Of a stretch of DNA of 64,000 nucleotides, positions 9,922 through 51,349 are shown piece after piece. Within the stretch, counting starts at the first letter, position 1, and each line of letters starts with the position of its first letter. This stretch comes from Hyphomicrobium sp. (lineage in GTDB: Bacteria; Pseudomonadota; Alphaproteobacteria; Rhizobiales; Hyphomicrobiaceae), in assembly GCA_003987725.1 (NCBI GenBank), contig RXJH01000010.1, positions 1 through 64,000 of the forward strand, in the 5' to 3' direction. Both the position numbers and the translations under genes were made by a program. The notes below the pieces were generated by a model that worked only from the letters and a program-made list of their open reading frames with translations, did not search any database and was not told the DNA's origin.

Positions 9922-11382
9922 ATGGACCACAAGGCCCGAGAACTCAAAGGCAAGGAGCGCTACAAGTCTGGCGTCCTTGAATATCGCAGGATGGGGTACT
10001 GGAACGCGGACTACGTGCCGAAGGACTCCGATCTCATTGCGGTATTCCGTATCACACCCCAGGACGGCGTCGACCCGATTGAAGCCGCGGCGGCTGTCGC
10101 CGGCGAGAGTTCGACCGCAACATGGACCGTCTGCTGGACGGACCGGCTGACTGCGGCCGATAAGTATCGCGCAAAAGCTTACAAAGTAGAGGCGGTGCCG
10201 GGCGTGCCGGACTCCTACTTCGCCTATATCGCCTACGATCTCGATCTGTTTGAGCCGGGCTCTATTGCCAATCTTACTGCATCCATCATCGGCAACGTGT
10301 TCGGCTTCAAACCGCTAAAAGCGCTGCGCCTCGAAGACATGCGCCTTCCACTCGCCTACGTAAAAACATTCCAAGGTCCGGCAACAGGAATCATTGTCGA
10401 ACGCGAGCGTCTCGATAAATTCGGCCGTCCGCTTCTCGGCGCAACGGTGAAGCCGAAGCTTGGTCTCTCAGGGCGCAACTACGGCCGCGTCGTCTACGAG
10501 GCGCTCAAAGGCGGCCTCGACTTCACCAAGGATGACGAAAACATCAACTCGCAGCCGTTCATGCATTGGCGCGAGCGATTCCTCTATTGCATGGAGGCCG
10601 TCAACAAGGCCCAGGCTGCTTCGGGTGAGGTCAAAGGCACATACCTCAATGTGACCGCCGCGACGATGGAGGACATGTACGAGCGTGCCGAATTCGCCAA
10701 GAGTCTCGGCTCCGTCGTCATCATGATCGATCTCGTGATCGGATGGACCGCTATGCAGTCGATGGCAAAGTGGGCACGGCGCAACGACATGATTTTGCAT
10801 CTGCATCGCGCCGGACATTCGACCTACACGCGGCAGAAGTCACACGGCGTCTCATTCCGCGTCATCGCCAAATGGGCCCGGCTCGCGGGCGTCGATCACA
10901 TTCACGCAGGCACCGTCGTCGGCAAGCTCGAAGGCGATCCGGCGACGACGCGCGGGTACTACGATATCTGCCGCCAGGATTTCAATCCGCGAACGCTCGA
11001 GCACGGCGTCTTCTTCGATCAGCATTGGGGCAGTCTCGGCAAGGTGATGCCGGTCGCCTCTGGCGGCATTCACGCCGGGCAGATGCATCAACTGCTCGAT
11101 CTCCTCGGAGAAGATGTCGTGCTGCAATTCGGCGGCGGAACGATCGGTCATCCTGCAGGCATTCAGGCAGGAGCGACGGCCAACAGGGTCGCCCTCGAAG
11201 CCATGGTTCTCGCGCGCAACGAGGGCCGAGACTACGTCAAGGAGGGGCCGCAAATTCTGGCCGAAGCGGCGCGCTGGTGCACGCCCTTAAGACAGGCCCT
11301 CGAAACCTGGAAGGACGTCACGTTCAACTACACTTCAACCGATAGTCCAGACTTCGTCCCGACTGCGACGGCTGCCGAGTAG
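9922..11382 (+). CDS. cbbL: RuBisCO large subunit, red-type form IC
   Basis: Catalytic subunit of ribulose-1,5-bisphosphate carboxylase/oxygenase. Active-site lysines are in VKPK (residues 176-179). The carbamylated lysine with its Mg ligands is in FTKDDEN (Lys203, Asp205, Glu206). The loop-6 segment [10 protein letters not shown] and the [10 protein letters not shown] and SGGIHAGQ phosphate sites are present. The long N-terminus ([18 protein letters not shown]) and the linked cbbX place it in red-type form IC/ID. Form IC enzymes usually have modest CO2 specificity, so 2-phosphoglycolate will be formed in air. That makes the cbbZ, glycolate oxidase, glycine cleavage and BHAC genes in this window relevant. 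486 residues, apparently intact. Confidence 0.97.
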
Positions 11383-11413
11383 CCGCCGCAAATTGATCAT
11401 GGAGCAACCTGCG

Positions 11414-48736: not shown

Positions 48737-49901
48737 CGAGGCTTCCCATCAGACCGACATTAAATATCCGCGCGGGATCGAAAGTTCGACGCAGGGCGGC
48801 TGAAAGCTCGGCTACCCCCTTGCGTTCAGGCGCGAAGATGAGGTCGCCGCACAGCGCGCCACCGCGCACCAGCGTGGCTTGTCCCGATCCCGCAGCTTTG
48901 CGCACAGAAACAGCGTCACCAATACCGCAGTACCAGATCAAGCCGCCCCCCCAATCCAGAGACACTTGACCACCCAGCGTTTGCAGCGCTGTCACTACTG
49001 CCGGCGCATCCGTTGGCTTCACAAAAATGCGCCAGACCGCATCAGTGGTATCAGAAAAATGCCGCAGATCGCGCAGCGATCGCCACAAGGCCTTGCTCTT
49101 CTCATCTTTGCAAATATCGATCGTGCGGTGGCGAAACAGTGCCGTCAGGCGCTCTCTCCGGTACTCCACCTGATGCGAGAGGCCCTCAATTCTTAGCCAA
49201 GCACTTCCGCCATGAAACGCCGCGCCCGAAATCTCAAATGGCGTACTCAAGCCAGCCAAGAATATCTCAACGGCTTCTGCTACCGAGATGCCGCCGAATA
49301 TGAGCGTCTGCTCACTCTCAGCCATGGGCAATGTCTTGAGCGCGACTTCCGTCAGAACACCGAGTGCTCCATAAGCCCCGCAGAGTAATTTTCCGAGATT
49401 GAGGCCGGTGACGTTCTTCATCACCCGGCCGCCGTTCTTGATGATTCGTCCCCTTCCATCGACGAAACGGATGCCAAGGAGATGATCACGGCATGCCCCC
49501 ACCTGCACACGGCGGGGACCTGAGACATTCGCCGATACCACACCACCAATTGTCGGCGTGCCCTTCGATGCGAGCAACGAGCGATGATCCATCGGCTCGA
49601 AGGCAAGAGTTTGCCTTTCCGCCGCGAGCATTTGTTCGATCTCTTCGACAGGCGTGCCGGCTCGCGCGATTAACGTCAGCTCACCCGGCTCGTAGGTGAC
49701 GATACCGCTCAGCTGGCGCGTCGTAAGGAGGCGGCTGTGCTCTGTCTCAACCATTTTGACACGCGTTCCGCCGCCTACGATGCGAAGCGGACGCGCGCTC
49801 GCGTGACTTTCCGCGATGATCGCCGCAAGTTCCGATTCATCCCTCGGTGCTAAGACGTCCGCTCCCTGGCTGCGATTGACGTCAGTTTCGTTCAATCGCA
49901 T
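48717..49901 (-). CDS. glcE: Glycolate oxidase FAD-binding subunit GlcE
   Basis: Second flavin-domain subunit of glycolate oxidase. The PCMH-type FAD domain shows PLRIVGGGTRVKM, GTPTIGGVVSANVSGPRRVQVGACRDHLLG and MKNVTGLNLGKLLCGAYGALGVLTEVALK. It is shorter than GlcD (394 residues), as in the family. It overlaps glcD by ten bases upstream and glcF by 20 bases downstream. Confidence 0.95.
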   Translation of the reverse strand: MRLNETDVNRSQGADVLAPRDESELAAIIAESHASARPLRIVGGGTRVKMVETEHSRLLTTRQLSGIVTYEPGELTLIARAGTPVEEIEQMLAAERQTLAFEPMDHRSLLASKGTPTIGGVVSANVSGPRRVQVGACRDHLLGIRFVDGRGRIIKNGGRVMKNVTGLNLGKLLCGAYGALGVLTEVALKTLPMAESEQTLIFGGISVAEAVEIFLAGLSTPFEISGAAFHGGSAWLRIEGLSHQVEYRRERLTALFRHRTIDICKDEKSKALWRSLRDLRHFSDTTDAVWRIFVKPTDAPAVVTALQTLGGQVSLDWGGGLIWYCGIGDAVSVRKAAGSGQATLVRGGALCGDLIFAPERKGVAELSAALRRTFDPARIFNVGLMGSLDADKVY

Positions 49902-51349
49902 CTGGCCCCTCGCTCTCGGTGTGGCCGACTGACATCAAGCGGGAATACCTTTGCAGGGTTGAGCAGCCATTCGGGATCGAACGCGTCCTTGATCTCCATC
50001 TGAATAGCCATGTCGTCCGGTGCGAACTGCGTCGCCATGAGGTCGCGCTTTTCTACTCCCACACCATGCTCGCCAGACAGGCAGCCCCCGACATCGACGC
50101 AAAGCCGTAGAATATCGTTGCCCAAAGCCTCCGCTCTTTCCAGTTCGCCAGGGCGGTTAGCGTTGAACAATATCAACGGGTGCATATTGCCGTCACCGGC
50201 ATGGAAGACATTGGCGACTTCCAGATTGTAGTCCTTAGCAAGCTCACCAATCCGCTTGAGCGTATAAGGGAGCATCGAGACAGGCACCGTACCGTCAAGG
50301 CAGAGGTAATCGCCCAAGCGACCCATTGCGCCGAAGGCAGACTTGCGTCCCTTCCAAATAGCGAGAGACTCGGCTGCATTGCTGCTGGTGCGAAATTCTA
50401 CCGGGTCGAACTCGGCAGCAATAGCGCGGATACGCTGGGTCTGATCGTCAATTTCCGCCTCAGATCCCTCCACCTCTACGATCAACACGGCGGCGCAGTT
50501 CGGATATCCCGCCTTGGCAAACGCCTCCACCGCCCTCACACACATTTCGTCCATGTATTCGATCGCCACCGGGAGCACTCCCGATCGAATGATCTGAGCG
50601 ACACACTCGCCTGCAATCTCGGCACTGTCGAAGCCTATAAGTATCGGCCTCGCACCTTCGGGCTTGGGAAGAATGCGCAACGTCGCTTCGGTTACGATGG
50701 CAAGTTGTCCTTCGGATCCGCAGATCAGCGCCAGTATATCCAAGCCGGAAGCACCCAGCAGCGGACCTCCCAATTCGACGATCTCGCCTGTGCTGAGAAC
50801 CATACGAACACCGAGGAGATTGTTGATGGTCACGCCATACTTGAGGCAATGCGCCCCGCCTGAGTTCATCGCGATATTGCCTGCAATCGTGCAGGCCAGT
50901 TGCGACGAAGGGTCAGGCGCATAGAAGAAGCCCTCTGCCTCAAGCTCCGCACTGACTGAGAGATTGGTCACGCCTGTCTGTACGCGAATGAAGCGGTTGG
51001 CCGTATCGATTTCGAGAAATTCGCGCAAGCGCATGGTGCCGATTACGACGCTATCGGCCGTCGGCAGGGCCCCTCCAGCCAGTGAAGTGCCTGCCCCGCG
51101 CGGAATAACGGGAACGCGCAATCCGTGACATATCCGCATAGCAGTCGCCACTTCCTCGGTCGTACGCGGCAGCACGACAGCAAGTGGCGGACACCGATAG
51201 GCAGTTAAGGCATCGCACTCATAGGCTCGCGTTTCCTCAGGATCAGAGATAATTATTTCCGCAGGTAGTGCGGCAGCCAACGCAGCAACGATCTCTGATT
51301 TCCGAGCGATGATTCCCTCGTCTGGTATGGGCATCGCTATCATCGACAT
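49892..51349 (-). CDS. glcD: Glycolate oxidase catalytic subunit GlcD
   Basis: FAD-linked oxidase that converts glycolate to glyoxylate. The PCMH FAD domain has PVIPRGAGTSLAGGALP and CTIAGNIAMNSGGAHCLKYG, and the C-terminal domain has NVFHAGDGNMHPLILF and SGEHGVGVEKRDLM with active-site histidines. 485 residues. First gene of glcDEF, read toward bhcR. Its product is the direct substrate of BhcA and BhcC. It may also be used for glycolate from CbbZ. Some family members accept D-lactate, so activity on that cannot be excluded. Confidence 0.95.
   Translation of the reverse strand: MSMIAMPIPDEGIIARKSEIVAALAAALPAEIIISDPEETRAYECDALTAYRCPPLAVVLPRTTEEVATAMRICHGLRVPVIPRGAGTSLAGGALPTADSVVIGTMRLREFLEIDTANRFIRVQTGVTNLSVSAELEAEGFFYAPDPSSQLACTIAGNIAMNSGGAHCLKYGVTINNLLGVRMVLSTGEIVELGGPLLGASGLDILALICGSEGQLAIVTEATLRILPKPEGARPILIGFDSAEIAGECVAQIIRSGVLPVAIEYMDEMCVRAVEAFAKAGYPNCAAVLIVEVEGSEAEIDDQTQRIRAIAAEFDPVEFRTSSNAAESLAIWKGRKSAFGAMGRLGDYLCLDGTVPVSMLPYTLKRIGELAKDYNLEVANVFHAGDGNMHPLILFNANRPGELERAEALGNDILRLCVDVGGCLSGEHGVGVEKRDLMATQFAPDDMAIQMEIKDAFDPEWLLNPAKVFPLDVSRPHRERGARCD

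Follow-up and report, generated by a model that had tools for sequence, protein, structure and literature searches.

A Calvin operon and a probably acquired two-carbon catabolic island as neighbours in a Hyphomicrobium genome

Introduction

Some Proteobacteria have been described as holding both the β-hydroxyaspartate cycle (BHAC) and the Calvin cycle (PMC8307300), and the BHAC, its regulator and the use of ethylene glycol through it are likewise published (PMC11323563, PMC12214560, PMC11166783). We examine a locus that carries genes for both cycles, at positions 1-64000 of contig RXJH01000010.1 (contig C2) from a Hyphomicrobium sp. genome of 4.25 Mb that is 99.98% complete (assembly GCA_003987725.1). 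This whole stretch of 64,000 nucleotides is called the window. Its BHAC genes are like those of Paracoccus denitrificans, with the same four enzymes and an IclR regulator divergent from bhcA. The bhc genes of P. denitrificans presumably lie apart from its glcDEF and glcR genes; the window differs in that glcDEF stands beside bhcR, and in that an aldehyde dehydrogenase, a major intrinsic protein (MIP) channel, a sigma-54 activator and a malic enzyme belong to the block. In P. denitrificans, glycolate oxidase and the GntR regulator GlcR (glcDEF and glcR, Pden_4397-4400) serve the BHAC, BhcR and GlcR respond to glyoxylate and glycolate, and the organism can also fix CO2 (PMC11323563).

Other described systems share parts of this layout. 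The etg cluster of P. denitrificans (EtgA, EtgB, EtgR) feeds the BHAC and, judged by its description, is like the window in having a Fis-family activator that adjoins an aldehyde dehydrogenase (PMC12214560); EtgB is an NAD alcohol dehydrogenase, whereas the alcohol enzyme of the window depends on pyrroloquinoline quinone (PQQ). Pseudomonas putida shares with the window a PQQ alcohol dehydrogenase (PQQ-ADH) of the quinoprotein ethanol dehydrogenase type, cytochrome c550 PedF and an aldehyde dehydrogenase, and its PedE and PedH act in PQQ-dependent ethylene glycol oxidation (PMC12214560). Unlike P. putida, the window would send glyoxylate to the BHAC, and Gcl of the glycerate pathway exceeds its cut-off in none of 22 genomes of the window genus (best match in the window genome, 342 of 711 bits); a P. 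putida strain engineered with the BHAC for ethylene glycol (PMC11166783) is a man-made counterpart. Cupriavidus necator H16 resembles the window in using phosphoglycolate phosphatase and GlcDEF to turn the RuBisCO product into glyoxylate, but it has the glycerate pathway and the malate cycle, and its genome lacks a gene for the BHAC aldolase (PMC7486775). In the accessible parts of the literature on hydroxyaspartate and phosphoglycolate salvage (PMC7486775, PMC8307300), no BHAC is shown working in phosphoglycolate salvage, and a full-text literature search for hydroxyaspartate together with Hyphomicrobium returned nothing.

We read the window as a separate cbb operon, followed by gcvTHP, plus an acquired two-carbon catabolic island from 34.6 to ~57.1 kb that would convert a diol or glycolate to oxaloacetate and acetyl-CoA, and we give this reading a probability of roughly 0.75. 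The sequence comparisons below suggest that the cbb and bhc sets are neighbours by history and not one photorespiration machine. What is new is the apparently mobile block of aldehyde dehydrogenase, malic enzyme, BHAC and GlcDEF genes with a PQQ alcohol dehydrogenase unit alongside. In this genome PQQ-type alcohol oxidation and the BHAC seem to be joined naturally; the literature consulted here describes such a pairing only as engineered, in P. putida. The part from aldehyde dehydrogenase to GlcDEF appears to travel as an island.

Horizontal movement of the BHAC block

BhcA, BhcB, BhcC, BhcD and BhcR are encoded in one cluster of the window, and all five exceed their curated cut-offs (Table 1). 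Gene identities were taken from bit scores compared with NCBI curated (NCBIfam) cut-offs, from Pfam E values and from the Rfam gathering threshold. Across 103 genomes of the family, BhcC exceeds its cut-off in only two, the window genome and G065, which belongs to a different genus; the same search gave no BhcC match in the other 21 members of the window genus. The G065 block, aldh-mip-s54-mae-bhcDCBA-bhcR-glcFED, has the order and orientation of the window block, with 74-91% protein identity.

The glycolate oxidase genes provide a built-in control for this comparison. Two GlcF copies lie 166 kb apart on the contig of the window genome, a standard copy at 214.8 kb and the island copy at 47.5 kb. 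Between the window genome and G065, the island copies are 89% (GlcD), 75% (GlcE) and 85% (GlcF) identical, while the standard copies of the same genome pair are 66%, 58% and 63% identical. Because the island GlcDEF proteins are far more alike than the standard ones, horizontal transfer is indicated. The 214.8-kb GlcDEF is the congeneric copy, 79-87% identical to that of congener G044, whereas the island GlcDEF is only 37-57% identical to either. Both genomes with BhcC above cut-off carry their second GlcF copy beside bhc. Taken from sequence, these comparisons point to horizontal movement of the block from aldh to glcD. No RuBisCO match was found in G065 (genome 98% complete), so the block persists without a RuBisCO match.

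We built a BhcC tree of 88 rows, most of them being the 80 named sequences that best match the window BhcC. The window and G065 are paired (100/98) within a starred clade of nine (99/88). Its other rows come from Phyllobacteriaceae, Rhizobiaceae and Methylobacteriaceae, with a single uncultured Paracoccus row, and the clade is separate from the second BHAC type of the family. BhcC matches of 388-469 bits in the family (e.g. G003, G005) were rejected as paralogues; G005, G008 and G027, plus the G101 row, lie beyond a very long branch.

Base composition marks the same region. The GC content of third codon positions (GC3) is 0.54-0.65 in every gene measured between 34.6 and 57.1 kb (aldh to gntR2), 0.68-0.78 in the cbb genes except cbbR (0.59), and 0.68-0.72 in gcv; xdhC, gntR, lctP and tetR of the window are likewise low (0.64-0.65). 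The pyruvate dehydrogenase genes adjoin the island with an unlike composition (GC3 0.72-0.74).

Gene content of the window

The original prediction placed RuBisCO, phosphoglycolate phosphatase, glycine cleavage, glycolate oxidase and the BHAC in one locus at 9922..51349. Every named part was found there, all within 42 kb, but the parts do not form one operon. They make up several units, some on each strand, and between these lie genes for a molybdopterin oxidoreductase, a lactate-type permease, pyruvate dehydrogenase, aldehyde dehydrogenase and malic enzyme (Table 1). The Calvin operon is complete, with cbbR and then fbp-prk-tkt-fba-cbbL-cbbS-cbbX-rpe-cbbZ at 3.7-14.4 kb, and the bhc set stands ~30 kb away from its RuBisCO genes. 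Scores of the island glycolate oxidase vary by subunit: GlcF reaches 450 bits against a cut-off of 333, GlcE falls just short (279 against 284), and GlcD scores 534 and 454 bits, below the cut-offs of 897 and 568 of two models. The malic enzyme, which lies beside bhcD in the window, accompanies bhc in 5 of the 80 named loci.

Table 1. Positions, strands and identifying matches of features in the window and of one enzyme encoded elsewhere in the genome
Feature	Position	Strand	Match or remark
cbbR (LysR)	3690..4613	-	NF045990 341 bits, below cut-off 450
fbp, prk, tkt, fba (Calvin cycle)	4766..9885	+	each above equivalog cut-off
cbbL, form I RuBisCO large subunit	9922..11382	+	NF003252 787 bits, cut-off 438
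cbbS	11393..11839	+	PF00101 E 6e-36
cbbX and rpe	11923..13637	+	TIGR02880 490 bits; TIGR01163 286 bits
cbbZ, phosphoglycolate phosphatase	13634..14356	+	TIGR01449 (PGP_bact) 153 bits, below cut-off 180 yet best family
Glycine riboswitch aptamer	14948..15045	+	RF00504 61.1 bits, gathering 32
gcvT, gcvH, gcvP	15130..19625	+	gcvT NF010093 555 bits; gcvP TIGR00461 1400 bits
gcvH	ORF 16397-16756	+	named by ORF reading; 62-64% match between gcvT and gcvP of two congeners
xdhC (-), gntR (-), lactate/glycolate-type permease, Fer2 and molybdopterin oxidoreductase, FMN 2-hydroxyacid dehydrogenase	20449..28130		separate hydroxyacid/aldehyde block
lpd, pdhE2, aceE (pyruvate dehydrogenase complex)	28920..34345	-	TIGR01350 495, TIGR01348 548 (cut-off 552), TIGR00759 1456 bits
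Aldehyde dehydrogenase, candidate glycolaldehyde dehydrogenase	34638..36164	-	PF00171 E 4e-174; best PDB 4o5h, phenylacetaldehyde dehydrogenase; 91% in G065 island
MIP channel (aquaglyceroporin), candidate diol uptake	36369..37184	-	PF00230; TIGR00861 161 bits, below cut-off 171
Sigma-54 activator (Fis-type helix-turn-helix)	37341..39296	+	PF00158, PF02954; divergent from mip-aldh
Malic enzyme with phosphotransacetylase-like domain	39477..41879	-	NF009501 1025 bits, below cut-off 1178
bhcD	41995..42993	-	NF045643 583 bits, cut-off 500
bhcC	43009..44172	-	NF045642 761 bits, cut-off 690
bhcB	44169..45149	-	NF045641 578 bits, cut-off 550
bhcA	45146..46336	-	NF045640 742 bits, cut-off 650
bhcR	46533..47342	+	NF045644 401 bits, cut-off 350
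glcF, glcE, glcD (island glycolate oxidase copy)	47432..51349	-	profile matches
PQQ alcohol dehydrogenase, quinoprotein ethanol dehydrogenase type	51658..53454	-	TIGR03075 754 bits; best PDB 6zcv 856 bits
Solute-binding protein, cytochrome c550 PedF, PQQ-associated beta-propeller	53715..56171	-	TIGR04494 194 bits (cut-off 122); TIGR03866 485 bits (cut-off 287)
GntR regulator (gntR2)	56368..57129	+	divergent from PQQ unit
Serine-glyoxylate aminotransferase	contig C4, L131 ORF 9141-10358		best PDB 6pk1 E 3e-134

Proposed route and its substrate

The neighbouring genes suggest how the island may work, together with the pyruvate dehydrogenase next to it, as a complete route. The PQQ dehydrogenase would oxidise a two-carbon alcohol, most likely ethylene glycol, on the outer side of the membrane and hand the electrons to cytochrome c550. 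Glycolaldehyde, or the diol through the MIP channel, would enter the cell, where the aldehyde dehydrogenase would form glycolate. The island GlcDEF would oxidise glycolate to glyoxylate, external glycolate joining at this step, and BhcABCD would convert two glyoxylate into one oxaloacetate without CO2 loss. The malic enzyme and the adjacent pyruvate dehydrogenase could then supply acetyl-CoA. Ethylene glycol is the best fit because its oxidation gives glycolate, while that of ethanol gives acetate. Since the route yields oxaloacetate and acetyl-CoA, it suits growth on a sole two-carbon source, unlike RuBisCO salvage, which leads to 3-phosphoglycerate.

Both a quinoprotein ethanol dehydrogenase and cytochrome c550 PedF are encoded in the window, and the best structural match of the former, 6zcv, is one that we take to be PedH of P. 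putida. The window PQQ-ADH carries GWDYDG; an extra Asp two residues beyond the catalytic Asp is a mark of lanthanide use. The membership of the PQQ unit in the route, the substrate and the order of steps are what we infer from these genes. Alternatively, the block might serve external glycolate or lactate-type acids only, with the PQQ unit an unrelated neighbour. An LctP-type permease and an FMN hydroxyacid dehydrogenase at 22.4-28.1 kb would fit such a use, as would the match of the MIP channel to a lactic acid transporter model (far below cut-off) and the fact that the window's PQQ unit is not on the G065 contig. Yet bhc in G065 is accompanied by the aldehyde dehydrogenase and its neighbouring sigma-54 activator. 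An aldehyde dehydrogenase has no evident task in the use of acids, and G065 has a PQQ-ADH fragment as well. We regard an acids-only function as doubtful, with perhaps one chance in a few.

RuBisCO and the BHAC across genomes

The original prediction saw in this layout a possible natural photorespiratory bypass: during autotrophy in air, RuBisCO, CbbZ and GlcDEF would supply glyoxylate, whose carbon the BHAC would conserve. All of the enzymes are present, and in principle the BHAC could take up RuBisCO-derived glyoxylate, but a photorespiratory reading of the layout is not supported. If the two systems worked together, they might be expected to occur together, so we compared their distributions in an even sample of 397 genomes of the order, the window genome included, with a BhcC threshold of E 1e-150. 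BhcC was found in 67 genomes (51 above cut-off), form I RuBisCO above cut-off in 92, and both in 15. There is no association: RuBisCO occurs in 15/67 (22.4%) of BhcC-positive and 77/330 (23.3%) of BhcC-negative genomes (odds ratio 0.95, p 1.0, shared descent not corrected). RuBisCO-like matches of 188-262 bits were left out of the form I counts; the G253 match, a fragment of 119 positions where a contig ends, may be a truncated form I gene, and counting it alters little, with 16/67 against 77/330 or, for BhcC above cut-off only, 15/51 against 78/346 (p 0.29). Within the family, 12 of the 14 RuBisCO-positive genomes lack a BhcC match of at least 640 bits. Congener G044 possesses a cbb operon, its cbbL being 92% identical, but none of BhcC, GcvP, Gcl and malate synthase G reaches threshold there.

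As to physical linkage, the two systems lie within 33 kb of each other in 2 of 16 genomes that have both (expected 0.28, P 0.03), but the window was chosen for its linkage, and without it the count is 1/15 (G021, P 0.23). The bhc and cbb genes share a contig in G113, 77 kb apart, and sit on different contigs in 13 genomes; as these assemblies all consist of several contigs or are drafts, part of the linkage may escape notice. We also inspected 80 named loci, the best named BhcC matches, with 10 kb flanks that were both whole in 57. Of the genomes behind these loci, 50 were searched for form I RuBisCO, and 16 contain it.

The glycolate oxidase bears on the same question. In the 103 family genomes, GlcF has a match in 99 at E 1e-60 and exceeds its cut-off in 96, against 14/103 for form I RuBisCO, which makes GlcF a family-wide trait that is not tied to RuBisCO. 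Two GlcF matches occur in six genomes, the window genome, G065, G003, G028, G078 and G094 (two fragments), and one in the other 93. The island copy is not the sole glycolate oxidase of the window genome; it is an additional copy that travelled together with bhc, and the standard GlcDEF gives RuBisCO-derived glycolate an oxidase outside the island. Proximity of bhc to RuBisCO alone is consequently not evidence of a photorespiratory bypass, given the lack of association in 397 genomes and the extra copy of glycolate oxidase.

One result favours a bypass. In G021, from genus g7 of this family, the cbb operon is divided between two contigs, with the break inside cbbL, and contains cbbL-cbbS-cbbX-rpe-cbbZ plus a second haloacid dehalogenase (HAD) gene. 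The BHAC-like module beside it encodes BhcC (641 bits), BhcB (587 bits, above cut-off), a tripartite ATP-independent periplasmic (TRAP) transporter and an enzyme resembling BhcA (45% by tblastn, with 460 of 650 bits for its G023 counterpart). A fused FAD/FeS dehydrogenase of 988-1001 residues lies beyond these genes, and with it the module spans L111 3954-14210 and L113 2621-12753. G023, a relative that is 93% complete, has the same module with a different neighbour and without detected RuBisCO. Neither bhcD nor bhcR had a hit on the contigs bearing the module. The BhcC matches of both genomes (641/644 bits, cut-off 690) were retained as BHAC-like, and in the BhcC tree this second BHAC type branches outside all named types. 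The module may be a variant form of the BHAC, or it may serve hydroxyaspartate uptake, and its TRAP importer suggests an external substrate. Some salvage role for RuBisCO-derived glycolate is possible in view of the G021 arrangement.

Weighing these results, a carbon-conserving bypass as the main function of the window BHAC is improbable. It would agree with the clustering of all enzymes within 42 kb, with the G021 module, with the lack of Gcl above cut-off and of malate synthase G at E 1e-20 in the 22 genus genomes, and with a BhcR that in P. denitrificans answers glyoxylate, which RuBisCO-derived glycolate could also supply (PMC11323563). It is opposed by the distributions above, by the occurrence of the island in G065 and of the G021-type module in G023, by congener G044, which has RuBisCO without BhcC above threshold, and by the second glycolate oxidase and the aminotransferase described below. 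A related proposal also seems improbable to us: that the BHAC was recruited next to cbb at least twice in the family's facultative autotrophs, in the window and independently in G021 with its divergent BhcA/B/C and TRAP genes, as a carbon-conserving salvage of RuBisCO glycolate, the window copy being induced by glyoxylate through BhcR alongside growth on external two-carbon compounds. By analogy with P. denitrificans, a BhcR/GlcR-type response to glyoxylate and glycolate would be expected in the window genome. BhcR would answer glyoxylate of any source, so that in air the BHAC might carry some of the flux derived from RuBisCO.

Other outlets for glyoxylate

The original prediction named two outlets for glyoxylate, the glycine cleavage system (GCV) under riboswitch control and the BHAC. 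Both are encoded, GCV preceded by its riboswitch, but the list was incomplete, since a serine-glyoxylate aminotransferase is encoded on contig C4 (Table 1); its best NCBIfam match is BhcA at 584 bits, below the cut-off of 650. The step from glyoxylate to glycine is thereby encoded in the genome. Contig C4 also carries malyl-CoA lyase (mcl, best PDB 5ugr), malate-CoA ligase beta (mtkA, above cut-off and adjacent in the cluster), the ligase alpha subunit (mtkB) and a 951-residue ORF of PEP-carboxylase size with no family match at the threshold used, and looks like a serine-cycle cluster. In serine-cycle methylotrophs, glyoxylate itself is a required substrate. Malate synthase G had no match in the 22 genus genomes at E 1e-20, and malate synthase A was not searched.

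These genes allow a plant-like route in which glyoxylate would become glycine by the aminotransferase and then pass through the riboswitch-controlled GCV and serine-cycle enzymes, the BHAC staying idle in autotrophy. Its appeal lies in gcvTHP, which directly follow cbb behind a glycine riboswitch, and in the aminotransferase with mcl, mtkA and mtkB. On the other side, gcv does not lie beside cbb in the stretches inspected from 8 of the 13 other RuBisCO-positive family genomes, and RuBisCO-positive congener G044 has no GcvP match. We give this route an even chance, and it can hold together with an acquired island. With the acquired island, too, we take the main path of RuBisCO-derived glycolate to be the standard GlcDEF followed by the serine-glyoxylate aminotransferase. 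The gcvP gene is single-copy in the window genome and present in 7/22 genus genomes, and the same glycine riboswitch precedes gcvT in the two congeners whose gcv loci were inspected, neither of which has a RuBisCO match.

The gcv operon itself is mosaic. Compared with two congeners, GcvT is 48-50%, GcvH 62-64% and GcvP 86% identical, and upstream of the riboswitch lies a 123-bp remnant of the gcvT 5′ end (14479-14601), 79% identical to 15259-15381 and with an in-frame stop.

Weighing the acquired island

Several observations weigh against an acquired island that degrades a diol. The GC3 contrast depends on a small sample, as the value elsewhere in the genome (0.75-0.83) comes from nine genes only. 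The G065 contig lacks the PQQ-ADH, c550 and propeller unit of the window; its end near aldh is a PQQ-ADH fragment that belongs to a different, quinohaemoprotein-like enzyme on the opposite side of the block. Pyruvate dehydrogenase, set apart by its composition as well, is missing from the same contig, whose end falls at that place. Ethylene glycol is suggested as the substrate by the company that the genes keep. On the side of RuBisCO, the G021 cbb operon is followed after ~50 bp by the divergent BHAC-like module on the opposite strand, and the association restricted to BhcC above cut-off leans slightly the other way (14/51 against 78/346, odds ratio 1.30, p 0.48). Finally, Paracoccus aminovorans HPD-2 alone among the 80 named loci shows cbb genes within the 10-kb flanks.

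In P. aminovorans HPD-2 (L022 17309-21160), cbbR-fbp-prk-cbbL lie ~5 kb from bhcD, with cbbL in shifted frames, and the genome has no RuBisCO match at E 1e-140.

Minor observations

A BhcR-like palindrome at 46472-46486, in the gap between bhcR and bhcA, does not recur beyond chance: with up to 3 mismatches the window contains 2 matches including the palindrome itself (2.3 expected), and none upstream of cbb, gcv or glcD. The scan is little informative, because the motif was chosen by eye.

A contig filed as Spirulina subsalsa FACHB-351 (L004) has bhcBC; its BhcC groups with Paracoccus aerius, and the contig is probably a contaminant.

A gntR-lctP-Fer2-molybdopterin oxidoreductase block stands 7-9 kb from cbb in the window, and so it does in G068 (L117 3-5216), whose genus is a different one; the cbb neighbourhood common to the two excludes bhc. 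Just outside the island, at 57855-59084, the window encodes a divergent class V aminotransferase (GC3 0.80, in line with genes elsewhere in the genome) whose best structural match is an alanine-glyoxylate aminotransferase (E 2e-28).

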